Below, one piece after another: positions 9,831-43,705 of a stretch of 46,682 nucleotides of DNA; positions within the stretch are counted from its first letter, which is position 1, and each line of letters begins with the position of its first letter. The notes below the pieces were generated by a model. That model made no database searches. It had not been told where the DNA came from and saw only the letters and a list, made by a program, of their open reading frames with translations. Source of the DNA: Deltaproteobacteria bacterium (GTDB lineage Bacteria > Myxococcota_C > UBA6777). A program made the translations under genes and the position numbers. Location of the stretch: positions 1 to 46,682 of the forward strand of contig PCBK01000198.1 of assembly GCA_002731275.1 (NCBI GenBank), read 5' to 3'.

Positions 9831-12800
9831 TTACTTGACGCAGGCTTTGATGGTTTTTCCGTCGACAGTGAGGCTACCACAGGAAGCTCTCGTGCCTTGC
9901 GCGAGACAGTCACCGGAGACCGTACATGGGACAGTACATTCCAGGCTGCTGCCATCACAGAGGCGCGTCGCGCAGGTGTTGGGGAAGGATGCCGAAGCAT
10001 TACATGTCCCGCCCACTGCGACATCACTACCACCAGGCATCGCGCAGAAGGTGCCGAGCTTGGCGTTTCTCTTCTCAGCACGACAGACATAGCCGTTTTT
10101 GCAATCATCAGCCTTGCTACATGAGCCTGTGTCAGGAACACACGCCATGACAGTCACATGCCCTGCTCCAACCGCCATAAAGGAAGGCGCGCACACAAAA
10201 CCACTCGCACAATCAGCGTCGACTTTACATGGCTCTTCGCACTTACCGGAGCCAAGACCACAGACACGGGTCTGACAATCGTTGGGGAAGGCTTGTGTAA
10301 TGGTGCATGTCGCGCCGACCTTTTTGTCAGTCGCGTCAGGAACACGACACTGTTTTTGGTATCCCATTGCAGCCGTAAGGTAGGTACAGACCTGACCGCT
10401 TGGGCAATCTTTGCTGGACTCACAAGCTGCATCACAGAGCTTCGTCTGGAAGCCTTCAACAGTCACGGTCCTACATTTGCCCACACCACAGTCAGCGTCG
10501 ACATTACAAGTCTCTACACAACGATCGTTGTCGGGATGGCACATCTTCGTCGTACATGTGCTGTTGAAGATGCTCTGTTTTGAGTCACACGTCGAGCCTG
10601 TGGCAGCTCCACTTCCAGCCTGACATGTGTAAACGATGCCTTGTGCTGTTCGTGCACCACGACAGACATTGGGCGCAGCACAGTCCGTCTTCTTCTGGCA
10701 GCTCGCGCCGACGTCAGGGACACAGCCTCTGACAGCCTTGTTGCCTTCGATGAAGGTCGAACCACACACGAGACCCTTCGGACAATCAGCGTCTTTGCCA
10801 CATGTCGCGACACACGCCTGTGTACCCGCCTCACAGAAGCGGTTCTCACAGTCACCAGGGATCTTCGTGTCCGTACACGCGTCACCAATTTTCTTCTTAC
10901 CGCTGGGGCGCTTGATACACTTCTTGATAATTGTACCTTGTAGATCGAAGTCGAGCGCACAGACAGGTTCAGCGGACGGGCAGACCGCGTCATGTGTACA
11001 TTCAACGCCACTAGAGACACAAGCTCGGGCGAGTGAACCACCGCTAAGTTCGACACTTCCACAAAGAGTGCGAGGACTGCTTGTACAATCAGCGTCTTTT
11101 TCACATGTATCAACACACACTTTGAGTGAGGGATGACACAGACCGGATTGGCAATCCGCATTGAGCGCACACACAGAGCCGGCTTTCTTTGCGTTACTGT
11201 CAGGGGGCAGACACAGATAGTCGATCTGCTTACCGCTCTCCCGAACCGTACAGATTGTTGTTTTGTAAGTACAATCGGCGGTCTTTTTGCAAACTTGTGG
11301 TGGGGGTGCGCAGGCGAAGACTTTGCTTCCTGAGATGGTGAGCTCAGTACAGACCTCACCAGAAGGACAATCACCCAGGCCAGATGTACAGGTTTGGGTA
11401 CACTTGTTGGTGATGAAGTTACACATTGAGGTTTGACATTGCCCCAGTGAAGTACATGCGTCACCGACTTTTCCGACATTTGGATCGCTTGGTTTGACGC
11501 ACGAGAAGGTGACACCACCAGCGGAGAGTGACGCTTTACAGACCTCACCAGAGGGGCAATCGGCGTTCCCCTGACAATCTTGACGGGCACCTGTGATGCA
11601 GGCGTTGATCTGTGTCGTCAAGAAAGAGAACGTTCCACAGTACTCAGTCGGTGCACAGTCTCTATGTGCCTGACAGATATCAGTACACTTGCTCTGATTG
11701 GGCTCACACAAACCTGTCGCGCAGGTGTTGCCTGCAGGAGGAGGTGTACAGGTGTCGCCCTTCTTGCTCTTGGTGCCAATAGCCACACAAGACGTGACCA
11801 CCTGGTTACCCGCGCCAAGGTCGGGCTTACAGGCTTCGCCAGTTGCGCAATCAGAGTCCTTGAAGCACTGACGACAGATGTTTGCAGGCCACTTTCCGTC
11901 CAAAATGGCCTCAGTACATGAGTAAGGTGCCGTACAACCCCCCGTCTTACAGAAGATGGAGCATCGTCTGGTTGATGGATCACAGAGCCCGGTCTGGCAT
12001 TGGTCTGTGCGAGAGGGATCGCATGTGTCACCGATCTTGGACGAACCTTTGGCTGTATCACAGGTGCGTTGTGCACGGTTGTCTGTGTCATAGGACAAGG
12101 TGCAGAATTCACCGGACTGACAATCACTGTCCGCATCACATGCTTTGCTGATCGTTGCGCAGAGGTTGAGATTGTTGGGGCCATTGGCTGTCGACTCACA
12201 ACGGAATTGCAACGGACAGCTCGTGCTCTTTCCACCGTTACATGGTGGGGAACACGTCTTCAGAGTGGGATGACAGAGACCACTTTGGCAGTCAGCGTCT
12301 TGTGTACATTTTGCGCCATGAGCGGCCTTTGTGGTCTCGGGCTCACGACAAGAGAGGATCGTGTCACTACCACGTTTGGTGTATTGGCAGATCTGACCTC
12401 TCGGACAATCCGCATCACCTTCACAGACCTTGAAACCACAGAGTTGGAACTTCGTGGCTTTGCCTGTTGAGTCTTTGACTTCGCGCTGTGTACAGAGGAA
12501 GGAGTCATCCACAGGGTTGACAGGTGGGGTCTTGCTTGCATCGAGACATTCGTCGATTTTGAGGCACGGTGCAGAGCAGTACCCTTCAGGCAAGAGACAG
12601 ACATTGGAAGCACAATCGCTGTGTTGCGTACACTTCTTACCAGTCTCACTCGTACTTGATCCTGGGGTATTACAGAACAAACTCAGTGTGTTGTTTTTCT
12701 CGACAATCTGACATTCTTCTTGTGAAGCACAGTTGTTCCTCGTTGCACAGGTCAAACCCGTCCCTGGACGAACACACATCGTTGTTTGGATGGGAGAAAA

Positions 12801-14363
12801 ACCAGTCAGGGTGAGATTCTGTTGGTTACAGTCGTAGCCAGCAGGACAGAGATTGCTTTTGGAGTTACAGGGTTTTGAGCAGCGGCCACTCAGACAGATG
12901 CGGGAGGCACAGTCTTCGTCTTTGCTACAAACCTCACCGACAGCGGCGGTCGCGGTTCCTTTGGTGACACAGGTCAACTTGAACTCACCAGTGTCTCTGA
13001 CAATCGCGCTACAGATTTCGCCTTGTGTCGTACAATTTGCATCTTCTTTGCAGTCTGTGTAGGACTTTGTACAGACGCGAACGCTGCCTTTTGTACCGTT
13101 GACAGTAAGCGCACTGGGATTACAAAGTAAACCGCCGACACAATCCCTAGTAGAGTCCTTGCAAAGAGTCGCACAGACATCTGTATCAGGTAGACAATAG
13201 CGACTTTGACAGTCATCGTTGTCGGTACAAGGTTGTCCTTTTCCAACCGCGCCTGTTTTGGGTTGTTGACAGTACGTCTCTATTTTTGAGGAGATAACTT
13301 TGGGTGAGCAGAAGTAATCTTCGTGGACACACTCCCCAGTTTTGTCGCAAGGCACACCGTTGGGACCGGGTTGGCAGATTTTGTAGGTTTGCTTGTTGGT
13401 GAAATCTGTGAACTCATAGGCTTTACAGACATAGCCCGTCCCACAATCAGCGTCAGCATCGCACAAGACACTACACATACGTAGGCTCTTCTTGATACAA
13501 ACGCCACTGTAACACTCAGTCTCACTATCACACACTTCGCCGAGTTCTTTGGTCGAGCCGGGCTTGGCCTGACATCGCGTCTCGTATTTTCCTTTGGTGA
13601 TGTTGGGGACGAGGATACAAAAAGTAGACTGATCGGTGGAGCAGTCATTGTTGCGTGAGCACTGGTCCCCACCAGGGAAACAGACATTGAGCTTCACATT
13701 ACCAATGTCAACAGAGTCGCAGCTTCCACCACCGGGACAATCGTTGCTATCGCGGCAGGTCTTCGTACATTTTTTGTATTTGCCATAGCAGAGGGTCGAC
13801 TGGCAATCGCCAGGTGCTGCTTTGGTCGGATCACAGGTCTCACCAAAACTGGCTGCGCCTGTATTTCCGGGCAGACAATACAACTCGTTGTTTTGGGAAG
13901 CATCAGGGATACAAAATGTCCCAGTACGTGAAGCACAGTCAGCATCGCTGGTACATTTGGGAGGAGGTCCAAGATCGGGTTCTTTTTCGACGATGGGCTC
14001 TTCAGGTGTCGGCTCGGAGGCATCAGCTTCTTCGACGACAGGTTCGGGAGCCGGTTCTTCCTTGACCGTGGGCTCTTCGGGTGTCGGTTCGGGTTTCGCA
14101 GGCTCAGCAGGCTTGCGATATCCCGGCGGGACAGTGACACACAGTTGTTGGATGCATTTCTGGTTGGCGCCCTGGCAGTCTGTGTCGCTGGTGCAAGCAG
14201 GCGCAGCAGTCCTGGGCTTACATGAACCATCTGTACACACTTGTGAGCCAGAACAATCTGTGTCGTAGGTACACTCAGGTTGGCTACAGTGGACGAGCAT
14301 CGCCCCCCAACCAAACAGACAACACAAAGTCAAAAGACGAAGCGAAATCAAACGAAACTTCAT
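9831..14363 (-). CDS. giant Cys-rich modular secreted protein (14 repeats)
   Basis: A 1510-residue protein starting at ATG 14363, with GAGGA 5 nt upstream; an ATG nine codons earlier lacks such a site. A signal sequence ends near LVHC, a non-canonical lipobox, so lipidation is uncertain. Then come two short Cys knots, a Pro/Glu-rich stalk (~80-140), another Cys module, and 14 tandem modules of ~95-105 residues. Each module starts with a G-x-x-C motif and follows the pattern C..(D)C.s..C....C...C....DC..g..C, similar to the dickkopf/EGF-like Cys-rich repeats of myxobacterial surface proteins. It is probably a disulfide-stabilised cell-surface stalk or adhesin; no catalytic motif is present. 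It is transcribed alone. The repetitive composition creates long meaningless open frames in other registers. Confidence 0.8.
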   Translation of the reverse strand: MKFRLISLRLLTLCCLFGWGAMLVHCSQPECTYDTDCSGSQVCTDGSCKPRTAAPACTSDTDCQGANQKCIQQLCVTVPPGYRKPAEPAKPEPTPEEPTVKEEPAPEPVVEEADASEPTPEEPIVEKEPDLGPPPKCTSDADCASRTGTFCIPDASQNNELYCLPGNTGAASFGETCDPTKAAPGDCQSTLCYGKYKKCTKTCRDSNDCPGGGSCDSVDIGNVKLNVCFPGGDQCSRNNDCSTDQSTFCILVPNITKGKYETRCQAKPGSTKELGEVCDSETECYSGVCIKKSLRMCSVLCDADADCGTGYVCKAYEFTDFTNKQTYKICQPGPNGVPCDKTGECVHEDYFCSPKVISSKIETYCQQPKTGAVGKGQPCTDNDDCQSRYCLPDTDVCATLCKDSTRDCVGGLLCNPSALTVNGTKGSVRVCTKSYTDCKEDANCTTQGEICSAIVRDTGEFKLTCVTKGTATAAVGEVCSKDEDCASRICLSGRCSKPCNSKSNLCPAGYDCNQQNLTLTGFSPIQTTMCVRPGTGLTCATRNNCASQEECQIVEKNNTLSLFCNTPGSSTSETGKKCTQHSDCASNVCLLPEGYCSAPCLKIDECLDASKTPPVNPVDDSFLCTQREVKDSTGKATKFQLCGFKVCEGDADCPRGQICQYTKRGSDTILSCREPETTKAAHGAKCTQDADCQSGLCHPTLKTCSPPCNGGKSTSCPLQFRCESTANGPNNLNLCATISKACDADSDCQSGEFCTLSYDTDNRAQRTCDTAKGSSKIGDTCDPSRTDQCQTGLCDPSTRRCSIFCKTGGCTAPYSCTEAILDGKWPANICRQCFKDSDCATGEACKPDLGAGNQVVTSCVAIGTKSKKGDTCTPPPAGNTCATGLCEPNQSKCTDICQAHRDCAPTEYCGTFSFLTTQINACITGARQDCQGNADCPSGEVCKASLSAGGVTFSCVKPSDPNVGKVGDACTSLGQCQTSMCNFITNKCTQTCTSGLGDCPSGEVCTELTISGSKVFACAPPPQVCKKTADCTYKTTICTVRESGKQIDYLCLPPDSNAKKAGSVCALNADCQSGLCHPSLKVCVDTCEKDADCTSSPRTLCGSVELSGGSLARACVSSGVECTHDAVCPSAEPVCALDFDLQGTIIKKCIKRPSGKKKIGDACTDTKIPGDCENRFCEAGTQACVATCGKDADCPKGLVCGSTFIEGNKAVRGCVPDVGASCQKKTDCAAPNVCRGARTAQGIVYTCQAGSGAATGSTCDSKQSIFNSTCTTKMCHPDNDRCVETCNVDADCGVGKCRTVTVEGFQTKLCDAACESSKDCPSGQVCTYLTAAMGYQKQCRVPDATDKKVGATCTITQAFPNDCQTRVCGLGSGKCEEPCKVDADCASGFVCAPSFMAVGAGHVTVMACVPDTGSCSKADDCKNGYVCRAEKRNAKLGTFCAMPGGSDVAVGGTCNASASFPNTCATRLCDGSSLECTVPCTVSGDCLAQGTRASCGSLTVDGKTIKACVK

Positions 14364-14707
14364 GGAAATCCTCAATATTTTCAGCTTCACGATGATCGGA
14401 TGTGAATGACACGTAATCGGGAAAAAAACCCGTTATCACAGGATGCTACCTTAGCGGAGTTGCCAGAAACGGTCAATCATCCAATTCTGCGATCACGGCT
14501 GAAACCTCAAAAAAGACAAAAATCTTTCAACGAAACAACACACTATACTCTATCGAAGAAAACAGACCCAAATGATCTTTTTCTCATCCTCTACCTTACA
14601 ATGACCACCCTCCTCTTCAAAACGTCTCACCCTCCGAGAGATACGTGATCGGTCTTTTCAGAGAGAATCAATTATCCAAATAGATTCAATCGATTAACGA
14701 AAAGCGT
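14364..14707. other. intergenic, no gene seen
   Basis: It separates the leftward giant gene from the tRNA promoter. Top-strand composition is strongly C/A biased: I counted 45 G and 78 C in 14401-14700, typical of the left side of this window. A tiny CGGG-A7-CCCG hairpin lies near 14418-14434. Nothing else is recognised. Confidence 0.4.
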
Positions 14708-19534: not shown

Positions 19535-22500
19535 ATGTTTACACGCTCTCGAAGAGGCACACATTGGGGCATCGCAGGCTTTCTCCTGCTTTGTGCCCCT
19601 TTTGCCCTCGCTTCAGCTCCCTCACATACATGTCCAGATGCACAAAAACACCCGGGACACGGCTTCTCTAAAGCACACATGTCCAAATACAACGGTCCCG
19701 GTACACAAAAGAACACCAAAGATAAACCCCCCATCAAAGCCAAGGGAAAACCCGCAAAAGTCGATGTCGTCTCCTTTACCACACGTGAAGGGACCTGGAT
19801 GAACCTCACCCTCTCGCCTGATGGTAAGTGGCTCGTCTTCGACTTGCTCGGCGATATCTACAAAATGTCCAGCAAAGGCGGCGACGCAAAGCGGCTGACA
19901 AAAGGCACAGCCTGGGACACACAGCCACGCTTCTCGCCTGATGGAAAGTGGCTCGTCTTCACAAGCGACCGCAGTGGTAGCGCCAACACCTGGATGATGG
20001 ATGTACAAGGCAAACAGCTCCGCCAACTCACACACAACCACGCCATCGTCACAAACAGTCCAGTCTTTTCACCTGATGGCCAACACGTGATCACACGACG
20101 ACGCATCACGGACCGCAGAAGTATCGGTGTTGTCGAACTATGGATGCACCACATCCTCGGCGGAAAGGGTCTTCAACTGACCTCAGGGAAACGAATTGGG
20201 GATGCCAATGAGCCGGCCTTCTCGCCTGATGGAAAATATCTCTACTTTTCGACACGTGGACGACATCGCTACAACAGAAACCCACACCAAGGGATCTGGA
20301 ATCTTCAGCGACTCGATATCCAAAGTGGCCATCGCAAGATGATCTCTCGTGGCGCGTCGCGTCCCCATCCTTCTCCTGATGGTCGTTATATCTCATTGAT
20401 CCGCCGCATCGGAAAAACATCTGCGATCCAACTTCACGATCTACGCACTGGTGCAGAACACACACTCACGAATATCCTCGATCGCGACCAACAAGAAGGC
20501 TTCGCGATGAATGGAACCTACCCTGCGATGGCCTGGAGTCGCGACAGTAAGATGTTGTACTTTACAGCCAAAGGTACCTTCTGGAAGCTGTCCATCAAAA
20601 ACAAAAAGCTCACCAAGCTCCCCTTCAAGGCAAAGGTCGAACAGCACGTCACGAGGGCACTACGTACAACCAGGAGAGTTGGACAAAAAGCCTTTCAGCT
20701 CAAAATATTGCGTTGGCCACAGCGCTCCTCCAAGGGAGACAGAATGCTCTATGGAGCGATCGGACGCATCTACAGCGTCGCGTGGCCTCCCAAACGCAAA
20801 CAACCCAAAGAGATCAAGCACAAAGATGCATTAGCCTACGCCCCAGCCTTTGCACGTGATGGACGAACTTTCGCCTACGTGACGTGGTCTGATACAAAAC
20901 GCGGCCATGTGTGGGTACGTTCATTTGGCAAAGATGGCACCCCCACACCTCCAAAACGTATCACCCAATACAGCAGCATGTATCTCCACCCCTCTTTCTC
21001 ACCAGACCAAAGCAAGCTGGTATTTATCAGCGCAAGTGGTGCTGACCGTCGTGGCCTTCCGCTCTCTTACCAACCCTGGCTTCAGCTTCAAGTCGCAGAC
21101 CTGAAGACCGGCAAGATCCGCTCGATTCTCACACTGAGAAGCCACGGTTCACTCAGCCGCAACCCTCAGCCACGTTTCTCGAAAGATGGCAAACGCATCT
21201 TCTTCACACGTATCTCCTACAAACGTTATAGAGGTTATCGTCATCTGTGCTCGGTCAGATTGGATGGTAGCGATGAAAAGAAACACTTCTCCGTGTACGC
21301 CGGTGAAGAGATGGAGCTGTCTCCCGACCAAAAGTGGCTGTTATTCAAACACCTGCACCAGATCTACGTGATGCCCACACCTCCCTTGCGCAGCAAACCC
21401 ATCTCACTGCGCGTGATCGACGGACGTATCGCTGGCAGTCCTTGGCCCATCGTCAAACTCTCGAAGATCGGAGGCAATTGGCCATCATGGGGACCAAACA
21501 ACCAGATCCTCTGGAGTCTTGGACGAGAGATCTACACCCTCCCTCTCTCGAAAGTCATCGACAAGCTGCAAAAAGACGCGAAGAAGCGCACACAAAAAGC
21601 GCTCAAACGCTACACCAAACAACGCCCCAAAACACAACTCTCCTCCACACCAAAAAAAGCTCCCTCCACCCAACAAACACCCTCCGCCAAGAGCAAACCG
21701 ACCTCTCGTCCCGTCAAGCCCACTAAAAAGTCGAAAAAAACAAAGAAGGCAAAAAAGAAGAAGAAAGACGCCCTGAAGCCGACAGTCCACAAAATCAGAC
21801 ATATCGTCAAGAGCGCAGAACCTTCGGGCTGTATCGCGCTGACACACGCGACGATTATCACGATGCACGGCAAACAAGTGATCCAGGACGGGACGCTGGT
21901 GTTGAATGGTTCAAGGATCCATTGGATGGGACCAAGCAAAAAGGCAAAGCTGCTCGGATACTGCAAAAAGATGGACATGAAAGGGAAATATATCATCCCC
22001 GGTTTCATCGATGTCCACTCACATATGCACTACAACGCGCTTGAGGTCTTCCCCAAGAGTTCGTGGGAATACTACGCAAATCTGGCTTATGGAGTCACGA
22101 CAACACACGATCCCTCAGCGAGCACGGAGCTGGTCTTTGGTCAATCAGAGATGGTCCGTGCCGGTGTGATGGTTGGACCAAGGATATACTCAACTGGATT
22201 CATCTTGTACGGAGCGGAGAACACACATAAAGCGATCGTCAGGGGTCTTCAGGATGCAAGACACCACATGAAGCGATTGAAAAAGCTCGGCGCGTTCAGT
22301 GTAAAAAGCTATATGCAGCCAAGACGCATCCAGCGACAATGGGTACTCCAGGCCGCGAGAGAAGAAAAGATGCTCGTCTACCCCGAAGGTGGTGGCAATC
22401 TCCAGATGAACCTGAATATGGTACTCGACGGTCACACAGGTATCGAACATGCCTTCCCAGTCGCGCCACTGTACAAAGATGTCGTCCAACTCGTCGCACA

Positions 22501-23062
22501 AAGCAAGACCGGTTACACACCAACCTTCCTGGTCGCTTATGGTGGATTGTCCGGGGAGATCTTCTTTTACCAACATGACACTGTTTGGAATAACAAGAAA
22601 CTCACCCAATTTTACCCACCAAGATTGCTCAACGCCCGCGCGAGATGGCCCAAACACATGGTAAGAGATAACGACTGGCACTTCCAAAAGATCGCAGAAT
22701 CCGCCAAAAAGATTATCCGCAGTGGTGGACAGGTGCAGATCGGCGCGCACGGTCAGCTGCAAGGCTTGGGCGTCCACTGGGAGATCTTCTCACTCGCCAA
22801 AGGCGGTTTGACACCTCATGAGGTTCTGAGGGCCGCAACTTACCACGGCGCAACATACCTCGGTCTTCAACACGATATCGGCAGTATCCAAAAAGGAAAA
22901 CTCGCGGATCTCGTGATCCTCGACAAGAACCCACTCAAAGACATCCATCACATCCGCGCAATCCGCTACGTGGTAAAGAACGGCTTCATCTATAAAGGAC
23001 ACTCCATGGATCGTGTCTGGCCCACAACACAAAAGCGCCCCACCTTCTTCTGGCAGCAATAA
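19535..23062 (+). CDS. TolB-type beta-propeller fused to amidohydrolase
   Basis: An 1175-residue exported enzyme. A signal peptide (~1-28, ending ALASA) is followed by PD40/WD40-like TolB propeller repeats (many FSPDGKWL/FSPDGKYL motifs, ~85-640). Next is a very basic Lys/Pro/Ser/Thr linker of ~80 residues (~669-752). The C-terminal amidohydrolase domain starts with its small beta-sandwich. Its barrel has DVHSHMH (metal HxH, ~826), SVKSYMQ (candidate bridging Lys), GIEHAF, GAHGQL, and the closing KGKLADLVILDKNP. Similar fusions are annotated as periplasmic amidohydrolases or imidazolonepropionase-like proteins, but the substrate is unknown. GGAGG precedes the ATG by 9 nt. It is transcribed alone toward the gene-free interval. 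Confidence 0.88.
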   Translation: MFTRSRRGTHWGIAGFLLLCAPFALASAPSHTCPDAQKHPGHGFSKAHMSKYNGPGTQKNTKDKPPIKAKGKPAKVDVVSFTTREGTWMNLTLSPDGKWLVFDLLGDIYKMSSKGGDAKRLTKGTAWDTQPRFSPDGKWLVFTSDRSGSANTWMMDVQGKQLRQLTHNHAIVTNSPVFSPDGQHVITRRRITDRRSIGVVELWMHHILGGKGLQLTSGKRIGDANEPAFSPDGKYLYFSTRGRHRYNRNPHQGIWNLQRLDIQSGHRKMISRGASRPHPSPDGRYISLIRRIGKTSAIQLHDLRTGAEHTLTNILDRDQQEGFAMNGTYPAMAWSRDSKMLYFTAKGTFWKLSIKNKKLTKLPFKAKVEQHVTRALRTTRRVGQKAFQLKILRWPQRSSKGDRMLYGAIGRIYSVAWPPKRKQPKEIKHKDALAYAPAFARDGRTFAYVTWSDTKRGHVWVRSFGKDGTPTPPKRITQYSSMYLHPSFSPDQSKLVFISASGADRRGLPLSYQPWLQLQVADLKTGKIRSILTLRSHGSLSRNPQPRFSKDGKRIFFTRISYKRYRGYRHLCSVRLDGSDEKKHFSVYAGEEMELSPDQKWLLFKHLHQIYVMPTPPLRSKPISLRVIDGRIAGSPWPIVKLSKIGGNWPSWGPNNQILWSLGREIYTLPLSKVIDKLQKDAKKRTQKALKRYTKQRPKTQLSSTPKKAPSTQQTPSAKSKPTSRPVKPTKKSKKTKKAKKKKKDALKPTVHKIRHIVKSAEPSGCIALTHATIITMHGKQVIQDGTLVLNGSRIHWMGPSKKAKLLGYCKKMDMKGKYIIPGFIDVHSHMHYNALEVFPKSSWEYYANLAYGVTTTHDPSASTELVFGQSEMVRAGVMVGPRIYSTGFILYGAENTHKAIVRGLQDARHHMKRLKKLGAFSVKSYMQPRRIQRQWVLQAAREEKMLVYPEGGGNLQMNLNMVLDGHTGIEHAFPVAPLYKDVVQLVAQSKTGYTPTFLVAYGGLSGEIFFYQHDTVWNNKKLTQFYPPRLLNARARWPKHMVRDNDWHFQKIAESAKKIIRSGGQVQIGAHGQLQGLGVHWEIFSLAKGGLTPHEVLRAATYHGATYLGLQHDIGSIQKGKLADLVILDKNPLKDIHHIRAIRYVVKNGFIYKGHSMDRVWPTTQKRPTFFWQQ

Positions 23063-23464
23063 CACCCTCCACCAGAACACACCACTCAAAACACAAGCGT
23101 GACACAACCCCCTTCATCAACCAGCGATCAAACACTCCCATCCACATGCTCATTTTGAACCCCCTTGGAACGACCATGGTGTTGCATTTCAAGCCATAAA
23201 GCTTGCATCCGACCATTCTCTCGTTATGTGGCTTTGCAGTGTTGGAATACAACACGATTGGGTCCTGTGTCTTTGTATCTTTAAAAAGTCAAAGGAGCGC
23301 TGCACGCTCCTTTCGCCTTCTGCAATGACATCCTCAATGGAACACTCCAACAGCCAAAGATAAAGATTCTAGTCTCACAAAAATCACTCAAAAAGCAACA
23401 AATGATGCAAAAAGATGCAAGCACCATTTGGAGAACAAAGTGGGTTGATGTTTCGATGTCAAAA
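23063..23464. other. left flank of the origin interval, no gene seen
   Basis: Non-coding by appearance. The first ~130 bases are very C/A-rich on the top strand, matching the left-arm bias. It contains the terminator-like hairpin listed at 23291-23313. Nothing else is recognised before the GATC array starts. Confidence 0.5.
23291..23313. terminator. perfect hairpin, possible bidirectional terminator
   Basis: AAAGGAGCG, a CTGCA loop, then CGCTCCTTT: a 9-bp perfect stem. On the - strand it runs into GACTTTTT; on the + strand the stem itself ends in TTT. It could stop readthrough from the amidohydrolase gene (stop at 23062) before the origin. Confidence 0.5.
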
Positions 23465-23931
23465 GATCGATCTAGTGGGATCGCCAATCAGAAAAAGATG
23501 TTGACAAGGGGGAGCGTGGAGAAATGATCGAGGTGATCACTTTTAATCTCTTGATTTTATGTATCTTTCAAGGAATCATGGGCGATCTTTACGGATCGAT
23601 CCATCCAAAACAGAAAAAATGGCCATAGGATACTTTTTCGATCTTTGCAGATCGATCGTGATCCAAAAAAGAGCGAGCACTGCATTTCGGACAAAGGATC
23701 AAAATGATCGAAAATTGATCATTTATTTCTCTTACTTTTCAAACCTATACACGATCAAGATGCGATCGCACGCGATCTTTCCTCATGATCCCGCTTTTTG
23801 GCCTGGTTTTGTGTTGGTGTCCGGATTTCGATCCTGAAAGATCGCGATCGGAAAGAATCGATCTTGATCATTGGCGATCATTTACAGGATCGAAGTCCAT
23901 TTGACATCAAAAACCTTTTCTTTTCATAGAG
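23465..23931. repeat. periodic GATC array beside the origin
   Basis: I count 27 GATC sites in 467 bp, where under two are expected by chance. They fall in clusters of 2-4 sites spaced mostly 9-11 bp (one helical turn): 23465/69/79, 23526/35, 23584/94/98, 23640/50/54/60, 23697/706/717, 23753/64/74/87, 23830/40/46, 23860/66/76/88. Successive clusters start about 56-57 bp apart (23469, 23526, 23584, 23640, 23697, 23753, with 23866 in phase after one irregular unit). Between clusters the DNA is AT-rich. Three more GATCs lie at 24183-24199. It could bind a methylation-dependent initiation regulator (SeqA/Dam-like logic) or an unknown origin-binding protein. Confidence 0.85.
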
Positions 23932-24033
23932 ATCATCGACAACTCCCCTTACGGACGTCTTGCCTTTGTATCTTGTAGTCTTTTGATTTTCCAAGACATT
24001 CGGAAAACCAAGTCAAAAAATTCATTTTTTTCG

Positions 24034-24207
24034 ATGAATTCATATCCTTGGAGGTGTTGTTTGTGGGTCACCTCACACGGCTTTTTGCCAGATATCGAAC
24101 AAAAGACAGCCTGCCCTCATTGCAAAAAGTTTTTAATGTTCAAACAGATACAGAGCAAAGACACAGTAGTAAGGGACCCAGAGATCGAAGTGATCGATCG
24201 CAAATGA
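24034..24207 (+). CDS. doubtful small ORF with CxxC motif
   Basis: A 57-residue frame starting at ATG 24034, containing a CC pair and a later CPHCKKF. The pattern faintly resembles a zinc ribbon, but there is no ribosome-binding site before this ATG. It lies in the origin interval, and the frame runs on upstream to a TTG without support. It is most likely non-coding. Confidence 0.15.
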   Translation: MNSYPWRCCLWVTSHGFLPDIEQKTACPHCKKFLMFKQIQSKDTVVRDPEIEVIDRK

Positions 24208-24624
24208 CGCTTCAGAAGCAGGTCAACATCCCCACAAGCGAAAATGGCAAATACCAGTCTGAAATTCGATGAGCATTTGTGCAAAAATGACATCAGACAA
24301 TTTCGCCCACGCAACCACCGCATACAAATAAAATACTGATATACATAGATTTTTCAAATCGTACAAGGACCAAAGTAGACACAAAACTTCTGAAAAGAAG
24401 GTCACTGCAGGCCAATATGAAAAACCTATAAAAATCAAACAGATACTCTCTTTGTCGGAGTTATCCACAGAGCTGGGGATAAAGCTGGGGAAAAGTCACT
24501 TTTTCGTAAGCCTATCAATAGGTTGTAATTACCTATCAATAACAATTCATTTGCACATAATTTGCTACCACTTGGAAAATCCACTCCCTTTCAAAATGAA
24601 AAGGAAAACATGGAGATAAGGTAG

Positions 24625-24657
24625 TTATCCACAGAGTTATCCACAGGCTTTTCCACA
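24625..24657 (+). promoter_or_regulatory. DnaA-box triplet, 12-bp spacing
   Basis: Boxes at 24625-24633 and 24637-24645 are perfect TTATCCACA, and 24649-24657 is TTTTCCACA. Centres are 12 bp apart and all have the same orientation, which suits cooperative DnaA filament assembly. Confidence 0.85.
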
Positions 24658-24741
24658 GCTGAACATAAAAACAGCACATAACTAGCGTAAAAAACGAATA
24701 AAAACAAAGCGATAGGTATGCACATTTAATCCTAATTTGGT

Positions 24742-24815
24742 TGTGGATAACTCTGTGGAAACTGTGGATAACTCTGTGGATAACTCTGTGGATAACTCAA
24801 GCGACCTGTGGAAAA
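24742..24815 (-). promoter_or_regulatory. DnaA-box group in inverse orientation
   Basis: Perfect TGTGGATAA at 24742, 24763, 24775 and 24787, with variants TGTGGAAAC at 24754 and TGTGGAAAA at 24807. The three at 24763-24795 are spaced 12 bp apart. All face opposite to the boxes on either side. Confidence 0.85.
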
Positions 24816-24833
24816 GTGAGCACCGGGAGAAAG

Positions 24834-24939
24834 TTTTCCACACATGTCCACAAGATGTCCACAGGCTTTTCCACAGTTTTTTCCACAGTTTTTGAGACAA
24901 AAGAACATTCACTTTCGAGCAGTTACAGAGTTATCCACA
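24834..24939 (+). promoter_or_regulatory. right DnaA-box group next to the unwinding element
   Basis: Weak boxes TTTTCCACA (24834, 24867, 24879) and ATGTCCACA (24844, 24855) lead to the perfect box TTATCCACA at 24931-24939. The 24855/24867/24879 trio again has 12-bp steps. Weak boxes between strong ones are typical of sites filled only by ATP-DnaA; that is general knowledge of origins, not shown here. Confidence 0.75.
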
Positions 24940-24954
24940 GGTAAAACCCTTCCC

Positions 24955-24969
24955 CTACTAATACTACTA
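24955..24969 (-). promoter_or_regulatory. DnaA-trio unwinding element
   Basis: The top strand reads CTA CTA ATA CTA CTA, so the bottom strand read 3' to 5' is GAT GAT TAT GAT GAT, matching the 3'-(G/A)AT-5' trio consensus described for bacterial basal unwinding systems. It begins 15 bp after the perfect box at 24931 with a GC-rich stretch (CCCTTCCCC) between, and is followed by ~50 bp of AT-rich DNA. Confidence 0.7.
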
Positions 24970-25000
24970 AAGAGATATAATTTAAATAATTTTTATTCTA

Positions 25001-25018
25001 GTAAGAAAATTTTCTTAC
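25001..25018. repeat. 18-bp perfect palindrome at edge of AT-rich element
   Basis: GTAAGAAAATTTTCTTAC is a perfect palindrome that closes the AT-rich stretch after the DnaA-trios. It could be a binding site for an origin protein or a cruciform-prone boundary. Confidence 0.7.
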
Positions 25019-25022
25019 GCGG

Positions 25023-25159
25023 ACACACACATACGCCTACACGTACGTGATGTGTACACCTACACGCACGCACGATCTTTTAGAATACGCGCGCTGCGTA
25101 CGTGTTCTTTTTATACAATGCGATGTGTTGACGTATATACAGAGCATGTGTGCATACGC
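25023..25159. other. alternating purine-pyrimidine tracts beside oriC
   Basis: Several runs of strictly alternating purine-pyrimidine occur within 140 bp: 25023-25036 (14 bp), 25038-25049 (12 bp) and 25144-25159 (16 bp), plus shorter CG/CA/TA runs between. Such DNA is prone to Z-form under negative supercoiling. It directly follows the predicted unwinding element. No gene is seen here. Confidence 0.55.
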
Positions 25160-25719
25160 TCGGGATTGAGAAGTCACCCAAAACACACATCACCAACGAT
25201 GGTGTGTACCTCGATGAATAAAAGCCTAATTTTTTCATTGCGTTATGTTCTTTTTTGAGTGTCTGTGATGCACTGTCCTGGCGAAACGAAGGGTTTGTGA
25301 GGGCTGAAAACAGATCGCCATGATCACGTAAAGGCTTCTCTCGCTTGCATTTTGCACTTTTTCTTGTCGAGATCCCGGAATGCTTTTGGTGGGGCTTCAC
25401 GAGGCAGTCAGGCGTAATCTCGACGGATCTCCTCTCGGCGTCTCTCTCGTCCCTTTCGCCTCGCCTCGCTCTTCGTACAAAAAATCTCTACTGGCTGTTG
25501 GGAGATAGGGACTTTCGTGCATTTTTGGCTTTCCATTTTGGCCAGTTTGTGGTTTAACCAAGGGCAGGTTTCGGACGCAGATTTTTGACGCAGTAATTTT
25601 GATTTTGAGCAAAAAGACGCAAAAAGAGCTTCCGAATAGCCAAGACTTCACGTGGTAGGTATTTCATGGGGAAATCAACTGCGGAAGGAAAAAAGAGCAG
25701 TCAAGCTGGAGATATGTAT
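25160..25719. other. right flank of the origin interval, no gene seen
   Basis: No protein-like reading frame with a ribosome-binding site was found. Short open frames on both strands (for example 25345-25557 and 25397-25651) overlap each other and look random. The far end holds the 3' side of the leftward gene that ends at 25720. Confidence 0.45.
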
Positions 25720-26505
25720 TCAGGCTTTTGCTGCGACGGGTTTGGCTTTGACCACCTCAGAACTGTCTTCTTTCATGCGCTTTTGTCTTACCAAGACGTC
25801 TACGTAAGTTAAAGAACCCAAGACAAGCGCGCGTTCATCCTGCGTCAACGAAGGATCTTGAAATTCGAGAGTGTAACTCTTCATCCCTGTCACCAGACGG
25901 CGTGCGTCTATGAGTTTGCGGCGAAAGCGTCCGACCTGCTTGCTGCCTTTTGACACGCGATACTGGAGACCAAAGGGTCTTCTGCGGATGGTTCCCCAAC
26001 GCTTGCCAGCCGCATCCCACAACATATATCGTCTATCACCCCACAACACTGATTGAGCTGACTCGCCAAGTAAACGAGCTTCGTCTCCTGTCATGTCATA
26101 GATGGAAAAGACCGCACGAAATAACGCCCAACCTTTGACCGCTTTGATCACCAATTCGTTGTTTTTGTCGTGGATTTCGATGACTGAAGATGCACGTGAT
26201 GAGAGGAACGTACGTACACTCACAATAGAGAGAAAGAAGAGACCAACAATGGCCAACCCTAGCCCAATGAGCTTTCCTGTGGAGTCAGCGCCTATCAGCG
26301 CCTGGTAGACACCTCCAACGACGAGTCCTACCTCCAGCAAGAGACCAAAGATCCACAACACAGGCGACATCCATGCCGGGTGAAATGTAATCTCACCAAT
26401 CTGCTCACCTGTGTCGTCGAGCAATTGAAACTTTGTATTCAATGACGGGAACCAGCGAAATTTTGACTGGACTGTAAAATTGTCCGCCTGAAGCAATTCG
26501 TTCAT
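25720..26505 (-). CDS. membrane protein with LURP-one/scramblase-like domain
   Basis: A 261-residue protein; AGGAGG stands 8 nt before the ATG. A short N-terminal beta segment (FQLLDDTGEQIGEITFH) leads to two transmembrane helices (~48-66 and ~77-97). A C-terminal domain (~105-240) follows, with VIEIHDKNNELVIKA, YMLWDAAGKRWGTI and a final strand-rich part. The two 'D..G..(I/L)G' strands resemble tubby-like LURP-one-related/phospholipid-scramblase domains; this is a fold-level guess. It is the first gene right of the origin and leftward, that is, against the predicted fork. Confidence 0.6.
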   Translation of the reverse strand: MNELLQADNFTVQSKFRWFPSLNTKFQLLDDTGEQIGEITFHPAWMSPVLWIFGLLLEVGLVVGGVYQALIGADSTGKLIGLGLAIVGLFFLSIVSVRTFLSSRASSVIEIHDKNNELVIKAVKGWALFRAVFSIYDMTGDEARLLGESAQSVLWGDRRYMLWDAAGKRWGTIRRRPFGLQYRVSKGSKQVGRFRRKLIDARRLVTGMKSYTLEFQDPSLTQDERALVLGSLTYVDVLVRQKRMKEDSSEVVKAKPVAAKA

Positions 26506-26793: not shown

Positions 26794-27726
26794 TCAGGAG
26801 GAGGGGGTGTTGGAGGCGTGTTTTTCCAACTCTTTGGCGCGCTGCCAATAGTGTTCAAGTTCGTGTTGGGGGGTCTCATGGAGGTCTTTTTGATCGGCAA
26901 AGACGAGCTGTTCAACTTGCTGAAAGCGTTTGCGGAACCGATGGGAGGTGCTCGCGAGCGCGTTCTCTGCGTCGATTTTCAAGTGTCTTGCGAGATTGAC
27001 GATCGTAAAGAGCAGGTCACCAAGTTCGGCCTCTTGCCTCTCATGTGATTCGTGGGCGATGGCTTCCCTGAGTTCTTGGAGCTCCTCATCGACTTTTCGC
27101 AGGACGGCTTGTTCATCAGGCCAATCAAACCCGACCTGGATGGCTTTGGCGGAGATCTTTTGTGCAAGATGAAGGGCTGGCAAGAGAGCAGGGATGCCTT
27201 CGAAGATCGAACGAAATGTGGGCTGTGAGCTGGCTTTCTCCTGGGCTTTGATCTTGGCCCAATTGCGTTTGATGTCCTCTTCCTTGATGGATGGATCTTC
27301 AAATACGTGGGGATGACGACGAATCATCTTCTCGACGATGTCTGTGTAGGCGTCTGCGAGGCTGAAGTGACCATCTTCTTCGCAAAAGCGACTCAAGAAT
27401 GTGACGAGAAAGAGGACATCACCGAGCTCTTCTTGGAAATCATCGTACTCACCATCAAGGGCTTTTTGTCCGGCTTCGACAGCTTCGAGCACCTCTTCTC
27501 TCAGGTCCGGGAGGATCGTCCGCAGGGTCTGTTTGCGATCCCACGGACAGCCTTGTGGGCTTCTGAGTGTTGCGACGATTTGGGTTAACTGTGCGGCCCG
27601 GTATCCGGCTCGAAGCGCAGTTGGGGAGAAAAACGGTAGCACGATCGGGAGCTTCATCTGGATGGGATGGAGCCATCGTTTGAACGTCTCTTTCAATGGA
27701 GCCTCCTGTGTATTGGTTTGAGACAT
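26794..27726 (-). CDS. mazG: nucleoside triphosphate pyrophosphohydrolase MazG
   Basis: A 310-residue cytoplasmic enzyme that hydrolyses (d)NTPs to NMP and PPi, a house-cleaning role. It has the hallmark LRSPQGCPWDRKQT start of the first MazG domain, followed by EEVLEAVEA and EELGDVLF metal-binding helices. A second copy, EELQELREA / EAELGDLLF, gives the two-domain architecture of the E. coli-type enzyme. An extra ~40 N-terminal residues precede the first domain. AGG lies 8 nt before the ATG. It diverges from the TPR membrane gene, with 97 bp between. Confidence 0.93.
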   Translation of the reverse strand: MSQTNTQEAPLKETFKRWLHPIQMKLPIVLPFFSPTALRAGYRAAQLTQIVATLRSPQGCPWDRKQTLRTILPDLREEVLEAVEAGQKALDGEYDDFQEELGDVLFLVTFLSRFCEEDGHFSLADAYTDIVEKMIRRHPHVFEDPSIKEEDIKRNWAKIKAQEKASSQPTFRSIFEGIPALLPALHLAQKISAKAIQVGFDWPDEQAVLRKVDEELQELREAIAHESHERQEAELGDLLFTIVNLARHLKIDAENALASTSHRFRKRFQQVEQLVFADQKDLHETPQHELEHYWQRAKELEKHASNTPSS

Positions 27727-30990: not shown

Positions 30991-32025
30991 ATGAAGATTG
31001 TATTTGATGATAATCACTTGTGTCGTGCGCTCTATGGAGAGCGTGAGCTTCACCTTCGCATCCTGGAAGAAACCCTCGACATCTCTGTCAACGCCCGAGG
31101 CAACGAACTTCAGCTCAGTGGCGCTGATGACAAACTCACCCTCGCAGAGGAAGTCCTCAACCAACTCTACTTCACCCTCAAGAAAGGCTTCTCGGTCAAA
31201 CCTGATGACATCCGTCGCGGGATCAAGGGGTTATTACGAGACCGTGATATCGATCTCTCAAAGATCTTTACGGACGTTATCTTCGTCAACAGACGCAATC
31301 GCAACATCACACCAAGAGGTCATCACCAAAAGCTCTACGTCGACGCGATGAGGAAGAACGATCTCGTCTTTGGGATTGGTCCAGCAGGGACCGGAAAGAC
31401 CTATCTCGCGATGGCGATGGCGGTCGCAGCCCTCACAAAGAAAGAGGTCGAGCGGATCATCCTCACACGCCCTGCCGTTGAAGCCGGTGAGCGTCTTGGG
31501 TTCTTGCCAGGCACGTTGCAAGACAAAGTCGATCCGTACCTTCGACCTCTCTACGACGCACTACATGATATGCTCGACGCCGAGAAAGTGGATGGCCTCC
31601 TCGAACGTGGCGTTGTCGAGGTCGCTCCGCTCGCATACATGCGCGGTCGCACCCTCAACAACGCCTTTGTCGTGCTCGACGAAGCCCAAAACACAACTGC
31701 CGAGCAGATGAAGATGTTCCTCACACGTCTGGGATTTGATTCCAAAGCGGTGATCACTGGAGACGTCACACAGATCGACCTGCCTCGTGGTGCTTCTTCT
31801 GGACTTGTCGAGAGCCAACGCATCCTCAAAGGTGTGCCCGGTCTGGCCTTTTGCTACTTCGATGAAGCCGATGTCGTGCGGCACCCTCTCGTCCAACGTA
31901 TCATCCTCGCGTACCAACGTGCTGATGAAGAAAAAAGATCCCGCTACGAACAAAACAGACGCGCATCACAAGAGAGAACAAACGACGCCCCCAAAGACGA
32001 ACCCCCTTCACAAGACGAATCATGA
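30991..32025 (+). CDS. PhoH-like ATPase
   Basis: A 344-residue cytoplasmic protein. The N-terminal ~110 residues are the KH-like region of PhoH proteins. The P-loop GPAGTGKT is at 130-137, LTRPAVEAGERLGFLPG follows, and the Walker B segment is VVLDEAQN. The C-terminus is a charged disordered tail. PhoH-like proteins are nucleotide-dependent RNA-associated enzymes, often encoded next to ybeY, as here (ATGA overlap). No strong ribosome-binding site precedes the ATG. Confidence 0.93.
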   Translation: MKIVFDDNHLCRALYGERELHLRILEETLDISVNARGNELQLSGADDKLTLAEEVLNQLYFTLKKGFSVKPDDIRRGIKGLLRDRDIDLSKIFTDVIFVNRRNRNITPRGHHQKLYVDAMRKNDLVFGIGPAGTGKTYLAMAMAVAALTKKEVERIILTRPAVEAGERLGFLPGTLQDKVDPYLRPLYDALHDMLDAEKVDGLLERGVVEVAPLAYMRGRTLNNAFVVLDEAQNTTAEQMKMFLTRLGFDSKAVITGDVTQIDLPRGASSGLVESQRILKGVPGLAFCYFDEADVVRHPLVQRIILAYQRADEEKRSRYEQNRRASQERTNDAPKDEPPSQDES

Positions 32026-32519
32026 TCTCTATCGCCAACCAACAAAAAGAATTACCCAATCTCCCCTCTAGCCTCAGACGACGTACTGCCAGGCTGCTCG
32101 AAGAACTTGGTCTCTCACAAGCTGAGCTGAGTATCGTCCTGTGTGATGATGAAGCCATCCGTGAGCTCAACGCCGAATGGCGTGGGAAAGACAAGGCCAC
32201 TGACGTCTTGTCCTTCCCTATCCACGAAGCCTACGACCTTGGAAAAGAACATTACCTCTCTGAAGAGATGGAAGCCGGGAGCATCCCTCCCCTGCTCGGT
32301 GATATTGTTATCTCTACGGAGACGTGTGTGAGACAGGCCAAAGAGTGGGGACATACACCCTATGATGAGGCGATCCGTTTGTGCCTTCATGGGTTGTTGC
32401 ATCTGTGCGGTTATGACCACGAAGAAGAAGATGACGCGGTCGAGATGAAAGCCAGAGAAGATGAACTTCTCCAGCTCTTTCGTACACGCAAAATCAAGGC
32501 GCTGACACAATTGGCCTGA
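32022..32519 (+). CDS. ybeY: endoribonuclease YbeY
   Basis: A 165-residue zinc-dependent RNase involved in 16S rRNA 3'-end maturation and ribosome quality control. The diagnostic metal site HGLLHLCGYDH has His123, His127 and His133. WRGKDKATDVLSFP is the conserved substrate loop. The start codon overlaps the stop of the phoH-like gene (ATGA), so the two are translationally coupled. Confidence 0.95.
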   Translation: MISIANQQKELPNLPSSLRRRTARLLEELGLSQAELSIVLCDDEAIRELNAEWRGKDKATDVLSFPIHEAYDLGKEHYLSEEMEAGSIPPLLGDIVISTETCVRQAKEWGHTPYDEAIRLCLHGLLHLCGYDHEEEDDAVEMKAREDELLQLFRTRKIKALTQLA

Positions 32520-43054: not shown

Positions 43055-43705
43055 CTATGCAACGTTGAAGGTGTAAAGACAAAACGACTCGCCTTGGCTC
43101 AAGGTGTAGCTCGTCGTATCTGTGAGGGTGAGTGTTTCTGGACAAGACGGAGGGGTGTGCTCCGTACCCCAGTAGAGGACCTGGCCTTCTGGTGAGAGGT
43201 AGTGGTGGATGATGGGGAGAACCTGTTCGGGGTTGACCGCGCGAAAGGTTACACATGCACAATCAGTGGGGAGTTTTTCTTTTTCTGGTTCACCATCAAA
43301 GCGGACTGGTCGAATCTTCATGTTTGGGAGCTTGAGATCACGTCTCGCCTGTTGAAGGAAAGCCGCGCGTTTATGATGTGATTCGACAAGGAGCCAGTGG
43401 AGATCTGGTCGCAAGATGGCGAGCGGGATCGCTGGAAAACCTGCACCTGAACCGACATCAAGGACGGTGCTTCCTTCTGGGAGTTTCGCGATGGTTGAGA
43501 GCGCGATGAGGGAGTCGACAAAGTGCCGATCCGAAAGATCATGAAGTGACGCAGCACCTGTCAGACGGATCTTTTTGTTCCACCGCAAGAGGGACTTTCC
43601 AAAAGAGATAAATGCTTTGGTGATATCATCACGCCAGCTGAGGTCGGTATTTGATGACTCGATGAGCTCGCGAAGTTGCAAGCCAATTTGTTTTTCAGGG
43701 TTCAT
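43055..43705 (-). CDS. rsmG: 16S rRNA (guanine-N7) methyltransferase RsmG
   Basis: A 216-residue SAM-dependent enzyme that methylates G527 of 16S rRNA (GidB). It has the SAM loop VLDVGSGAGFPAIPLA (~81-96), the conserved RWNKKIRLTGA start, HFVDSL, and SHHKRAAFLQQ. Its length is normal for the family. In many bacteria rsmG lies close to oriC beside parAB, but here it is 18 kb away with no par genes in view. It is 24 bp downstream of the zinc-ribbon kinase gene, so probably co-transcribed. Confidence 0.95.
   Translation of the reverse strand: MNPEKQIGLQLRELIESSNTDLSWRDDITKAFISFGKSLLRWNKKIRLTGAASLHDLSDRHFVDSLIALSTIAKLPEGSTVLDVGSGAGFPAIPLAILRPDLHWLLVESHHKRAAFLQQARRDLKLPNMKIRPVRFDGEPEKEKLPTDCACVTFRAVNPEQVLPIIHHYLSPEGQVLYWGTEHTPPSCPETLTLTDTTSYTLSQGESFCLYTFNVA

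Follow-up and report, generated by a model that had tools for sequence, protein, structure and literature searches.

Does the chromosome of this lineage begin replication at a locus that carries neither dnaA nor dnaN? The original prediction was that the region at 24461-25018 is a chromosomal origin (oriC) lying away from dnaA. We examined it in a 10.75-Mb draft genome of 200 contigs (G000), in which the window, i.e. the whole stretch of DNA analyzed (46,682 bp), is the entire contig C187. The phylum-level search comprised five genomes only, our own and four relatives (G001-G004), all from one family. The prediction was borne out, and the region is almost certainly the chromosomal oriC, because its box cluster is unique in the genome and is joined by DnaA-trios and an AT-rich unwinding element, because the single strand-composition switch falls here with none near dnaA, and because the gene context is kept in all five genomes. 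What has been established in silico is the anatomy, its uniqueness in the genome, a strand-composition switch of bidirectional type and the conservation of the locus across the phylum. The features of the locus are as follows.

23063-25719, no strand: gene-free interval with the complete origin (gene calls); the strand-composition switch lies inside it
23463-23935, no strand: GATC cluster, putative methylation/sequestration region (27 GATC per 500 bp from 23465)
24461-24469, plus strand: perfect DnaA box, left outlier (motif search)
24625-24657, plus strand: three-box array TTATCCACA, TTATCCACA, TTTTCCACA in 12-bp register (motif search, spacing)
24742-24815, minus strand: array of reversed orientation with four perfect boxes (24742, 24763, 24775, 24787) and one TTTTCCACA (24807) (motif search)
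24834-24887, plus strand: array of weaker boxes (24834, 24844, 24855, 24867, 24879) (mismatch search)
24931-24939, plus strand: perfect DnaA box adjoining the DnaA-trios (motif search)
24955-24969, plus strand: DnaA-trios CTACTAATACTACTA, bottom strand 3'-GAT-GAT-TAT-GAT-GAT-5', 15 nt past the box at 24931
24959-25017, no strand: predicted AT-rich DNA unwinding element (least stable 50-mer at 24959-25008)
25016-25165, no strand: alternating purine-pyrimidine (Z-prone) stretch directly past the unwinding element (alternation 0.76)
25720-26505, minus strand: p25720, conserved origin-flanking gene; tubby/LURP-one-like fold with two predicted membrane helices (AlphaFold/Foldseek)
26794-27726, minus strand: mazG, flanking gene kept in two relatives (profile match, gene order)
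30991-32519, plus strand: phoH-ybeY, conserved right flank (profile match, gene order)
43055-43705, minus strand: rsmG (gidB), classical origin neighbor (profile match, gene order)

The interval without called genes, previously put at 2.6 kb, measures 2,657 bp, lies between the genes at 19535-23062 and 25720-26505 and holds the whole origin. Where at least eight perfect DnaA boxes had been claimed, exactly eight TTATCCACA boxes were found in 479 bp (24461+, 24625+, 24637+, 24742-, 24763-, 24775-, 24787- and 24931+), and the predicted 12-bp repeat is real as a start-to-start distance. Near matches are present as predicted, but their number, given as about nine, is 12 within 24461-24939 (six with one mismatch and six with two). 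The boxes form three arrays of alternating orientation, largely in 12-bp register; a lone plus-strand box stands at 24461 and another at 24931. The cluster is far above chance, as expected of a DnaA-dependent chromosomal oriC: TTATCCACA occurs 89 times in the 10.75-Mb genome, 81 of them elsewhere, and simple arithmetic predicts about 0.004 of those 81 copies in 480 bp versus the eight observed. Counting boxes with at most one mismatch per 500-bp window gave 14 here compared with three in the next best window of a 1.38-Mb genome sample. No tandem TTATCCACA-N1-6-TTWTCCACA was detected outside the origin cluster when the entire 10.75-Mb genome was searched.

An unwinding element had also been predicted to follow the boxes, and this too was found. 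The box at 24931 is followed by a 15-nt spacer and then by CTACTAATACTACTA at 24955-24969, a segment overlapping the least stable 50-mer of the whole window (24959-25008); an AT-rich element adjoins the boxes, as in other DnaA-dependent origins. The basal unwinding system is defined by a box, a spacer of no more than 16 nt and at least three trios with a central A, GAT being the most frequent (PMC8287927). This arrangement is present here and is unclear in G002 and G004. G001 shows the same order (box, 14 nt, CTACTACTACTACTATTA), and within its origin region the 50-mer of lowest stability lies at the same point. No clear DnaA-trio was identified past the last box in G002 and G004, so the predicted unwinding element is not uniformly recognizable across the phylum. 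The alternation at 25016-25165 is the highest 150-bp value in the 1.38-Mb sample (next highest, 0.69). Perfectly alternating runs occupy the corresponding place in G002 (31 nt) and G004 (39 nt), and the strongest alternating stretch of G001 also lies inside its origin interval; no such stretch was found at the corresponding place in G003. Speculatively, it could absorb superhelical stress beside the unwinding element.

We also examined the position of dnaA, which is adjacent to dnaN on a separate contig, C35. As predicted for dnaA, dnaN and parAB, contig C187 carries neither dnaA nor dnaN nor any TIGR00180 ParB gene. A search for the parS consensus gave one-mismatch matches only, overall no commoner than matches to a control pattern and none of them on C187. 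The locus had been called unlike the usual arrangement, and rightly so; rsmG (gidB), a classical origin neighbor at 43055-43705, had been overlooked. A stronger DnaA-box cluster beside dnaA, named in advance as evidence against the prediction, was not found up to 36 kb to the left and 16 kb to the right of dnaA in our own genome, nor in the dnaA regions of the four relatives. The distance from dnaA to oriC is at least ~41 kb in our own genome, this minimum applying if the right end of C35 adjoins the left end of C187; in G002, dnaA lies mid-contig (181 kb) and hence at least ~99 kb from oriC. In E. coli and Caulobacter, oriC likewise lies away from dnaA. Such separation of the origin from dnaA has been described before (PMC10225481); it is not new in kind and is no surprise in itself.

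Comparison of gene order revealed a DnaA-box cluster in the same context in all four relatives, with one such locus per genome, as expected of a DnaA-dependent oriC. The shared context is p25720-(mazG)-TPR-DUF4388-phoH-ybeY-rsmG. G002 and G004 have the order maoC, hpcH, TolB-amidohydrolase, boxes, p25720, mazG, TPR, DUF4388, phoH, ybeY, rsmG; G001 has hpcH, boxes, p25720, TPR, DUF4388, phoH, ybeY, rsmG; and the G003 contig begins at the origin and continues with p25720, TPR, DUF4388, phoH, ybeY, rsmG. The conserved neighbor rsmG is 18 kb away in our own genome and ~7-10 kb away in the relatives. Additional DnaA-box groups were observed beyond p25720 in G001 (locus L042, 13510-16915) and G003 (locus L047, 624-2671), and the origin region is therefore multipartite in these two genomes. 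An ortholog of p25720 lies beside the origin in all five genomes. The protein has no Pfam match; its AlphaFold model (pLDDT 76, five-sequence alignment) has two hydrophobic helices inserted in the fold, and Foldseek gave weak matches to LURP-one (1zxu, probability 1.00 but E 0.004) and to tubby C-terminal domains. A PhoH scan of named genomes, none from this phylum, covered 80 phoH loci, and none of them had a box cluster alongside; the origin gene context thus appears specific to this lineage. Placement of the lineage in the PhoH tree was unreliable. At 9831-14390 (minus strand), the window also encodes a very long cysteine-rich protein of repeated units that is probably secreted, with a relative on the same side of the origin in G002.

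This context bears on whether the locus is the origin of a second replicon, a chromid or large plasmid, instead of the main chromosome. The contig is just 46.7 kb and is unjoined to the dnaA contig, which would suit such a replicon, but its flanks are core chromosomal genes (rsmG, phoH, ybeY, mazG and tRNA-His), mostly in the same order in the relatives, and the genome has no second tandem DnaA-box cluster that could serve the chromosome. We consider a second replicon very improbable.

To separate gene orientation from the strand component of base composition, we applied an orientation-corrected test to the four-fold degenerate sites of predicted genes. Without correction, cumulative GC skew across the window bottoms out near 33 kb, an effect of C-rich third positions on coding strands and of the minus-strand orientation of most genes beyond ~33 kb; this raw measure was misleading as an origin locator and was replaced by the corrected test. 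The likelihood of each gene was calculated under leading and lagging models of its own coding strand, trained on C3, C35, C8, C4 and C2 without C187; smaller contig stretches and the relatives were outside the training. The strand component keeps one sign throughout C3 (420 kb), C35 (262 kb, carrying dnaA), C8 (172 kb), C4 and C2, the signs of these five training contigs having been set from the same statistic so that their near-zero gains are partly built in, and it changes sign on C187. On C187, all 10 called genes to the left of the interval indicated a lagging-like plus strand, and most genes to its right a leading-like one. One change-point fits best; it is located between 23062 and 25720, has the origin direction (log-likelihood gain, 120.7 nats) and is visible for genes of both orientations. 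Elsewhere in the genome, 20 further contig stretches totaling 1.33 Mb gave no origin-like switch above 9, and the 262-kb dnaA contig gave none. The same switch was present at the box cluster in the three relatives with a spanning contig (gains of 133.7 in G002, 66.3 in G004 and 29.2 in G001). A lagging-to-leading switch of this kind is what a bidirectional origin should leave behind. The opposite flanking skews originally predicted are real, with the qualification that the change at the box interval appears only after correction for gene orientation and not in the raw cumulative skew. Separately, a leading-to-lagging (ter-like) switch was observed at about 2152 of contig C100 (1-20000; gain 18.8), possibly a terminus or an inversion.

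Dense high-affinity boxes able to soak up DnaA would also suit a site for DnaA titration or reactivation, as known from datA, DARS and the DnaA-box clusters of B. subtilis, where DnaA binds without starting replication and the real origin lies elsewhere. Against it stand the unwinding element and DnaA-trios, a strand switch placed at this locus and nowhere else in the sampled genome, and the lack of any further tandem-box site in the genome; its probability is slighter still. Just as improbable is a switch arising from gene orientation or local mutation bias and not from replication: the raw skew minimum at ~33 kb, with most genes to its right on the minus strand, would fit, but genes were compared with models of their own coding strand, both orientations switch, and the long sampled contigs (100-420 kb) do not. 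Counted against the oriC reading were the missing clear trio in G002 and G004, the location of parS and ParB off the contig, a dnaA gene possibly only ~41 kb away, and the draft state of the assembly.

For an oriC at this locus, the proposed steps from DnaA binding and oligomer growth to unwinding and helicase loading are modeled on those of B. subtilis and E. coli. DnaA, encoded elsewhere, would bind the perfect boxes and fill the 12-bp-spaced arrays as a directional oligomer. Growing past the box at 24931, this oligomer would cover the DnaA-trios (24955-24969) and open the AT-rich element (24959-25017); DnaB would be loaded there, and two forks would depart in opposite directions. The adjacent GATC cluster may serve methylation-dependent timing, a weaker inference than the rest.

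The case for a GATC cluster is built on window counts. The 27 GATC per 500 bp from 23465 compare with a genome average of 3.7, and the cluster at 23463-23935 has the highest count both in 1.38 Mb of our own genome and among 222 intergenic intervals. In a 4-mer Markov test, GATC was not strongly singled out once its own sub-words were conditioned on. The cluster lies ~530 bp from the box region, with no GATC in 24501-25000, and hence does not overlap the DnaA-binding sites. GATC is also overrepresented at the origins of G003 (22) and G001 (18), between box groups; no comparable cluster was found at the origins of G002 and G004. A second GATC-rich intergenic stretch was observed on contig C9 of our own genome (10392-11152, 18 in 500 bp), and the small gene downstream of it has an end that by eye resembles sigma-70 region 4. 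Analysis with TIGR00571 identified a Dam-family methylase in G000 (246 bits) and G003 (303 bits), whose top solved relative is the DpnII-system methylase (2dpm); its GATC specificity is putative. In G001, a homolog resembles these two in sequence and in Pfam score. Besides the G000 and G003 proteins, the TIGR00571 scan covered the best-scoring PF02086 proteins of G002 and G004, which reached <30 bits. SeqA (PF03925) was absent from all five genomes, while the control search gave matches in E. coli; according to a review, sequestration by SeqA appears to be confined to a subset of the proteobacteria that have Dam (PMC4285127). Because a Dam-family methylase and an oriC GATC cluster occur together in two genera and both are weak or missing in a third, firing of oriC may be timed in this lineage by GATC adenine methylation through a non-SeqA reader, a tentative reading that we consider rather unlikely. 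Against a simple methylation reading are the position of the cluster off the boxes, the second GATC-rich stretch on C9 and the commonness of GATC genome-wide. The presence-absence contrast represents one evolutionary event at best, and G002 and G004 are incomplete drafts.

For a small lineage of phylum rank whose large genomes come as fragmented assemblies, these data provide a replication origin and a gene context by which to find it. With origin and context fixed, fork direction and gene strand bias are now assignable in the lineage. The GATC cluster and Dam-family methylase without SeqA hint at methylation-based origin control arising outside the Dam/SeqA proteobacteria.

Compared with known systems, the locus resembles the basal unwinding system of B. 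subtilis oriC in having a box, a 15-nt spacer, at least three trios in which 3'-GAT-5' dominates, and AT-rich DNA thereafter (PMC8287927). It differs in not lying beside dnaA and in having more boxes, in three arrays of alternating orientation, and a clear trio element is seen in no more than two of the five genomes of this phylum. E. coli oriC is located in the gidA/mnmG-mioC region, distant from dnaA, with rsmG (gidB) in the same region. The locus shares with that Dam/SeqA origin its separation from dnaA and the presence of a GATC-rich region, and the genome likewise encodes a Dam-family methylase; in contrast to E. coli, ~530 bp separate its GATC cluster from the box region, so that the boxes are not overlapped, its flanking genes differ and the genome has no SeqA. 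It is also like the origins predicted away from dnaA elsewhere (Ori-Finder/DoriC), with a DnaA-box cluster, a skew switch and dnaA at another site, but its neighbors are lineage-specific (p25720, mazG, TPR, DUF4388, phoH and ybeY). The class of origin is thus ordinary, and what goes beyond routine is a fixed origin for a little-known phylum together with the lead of GATC and Dam without SeqA.
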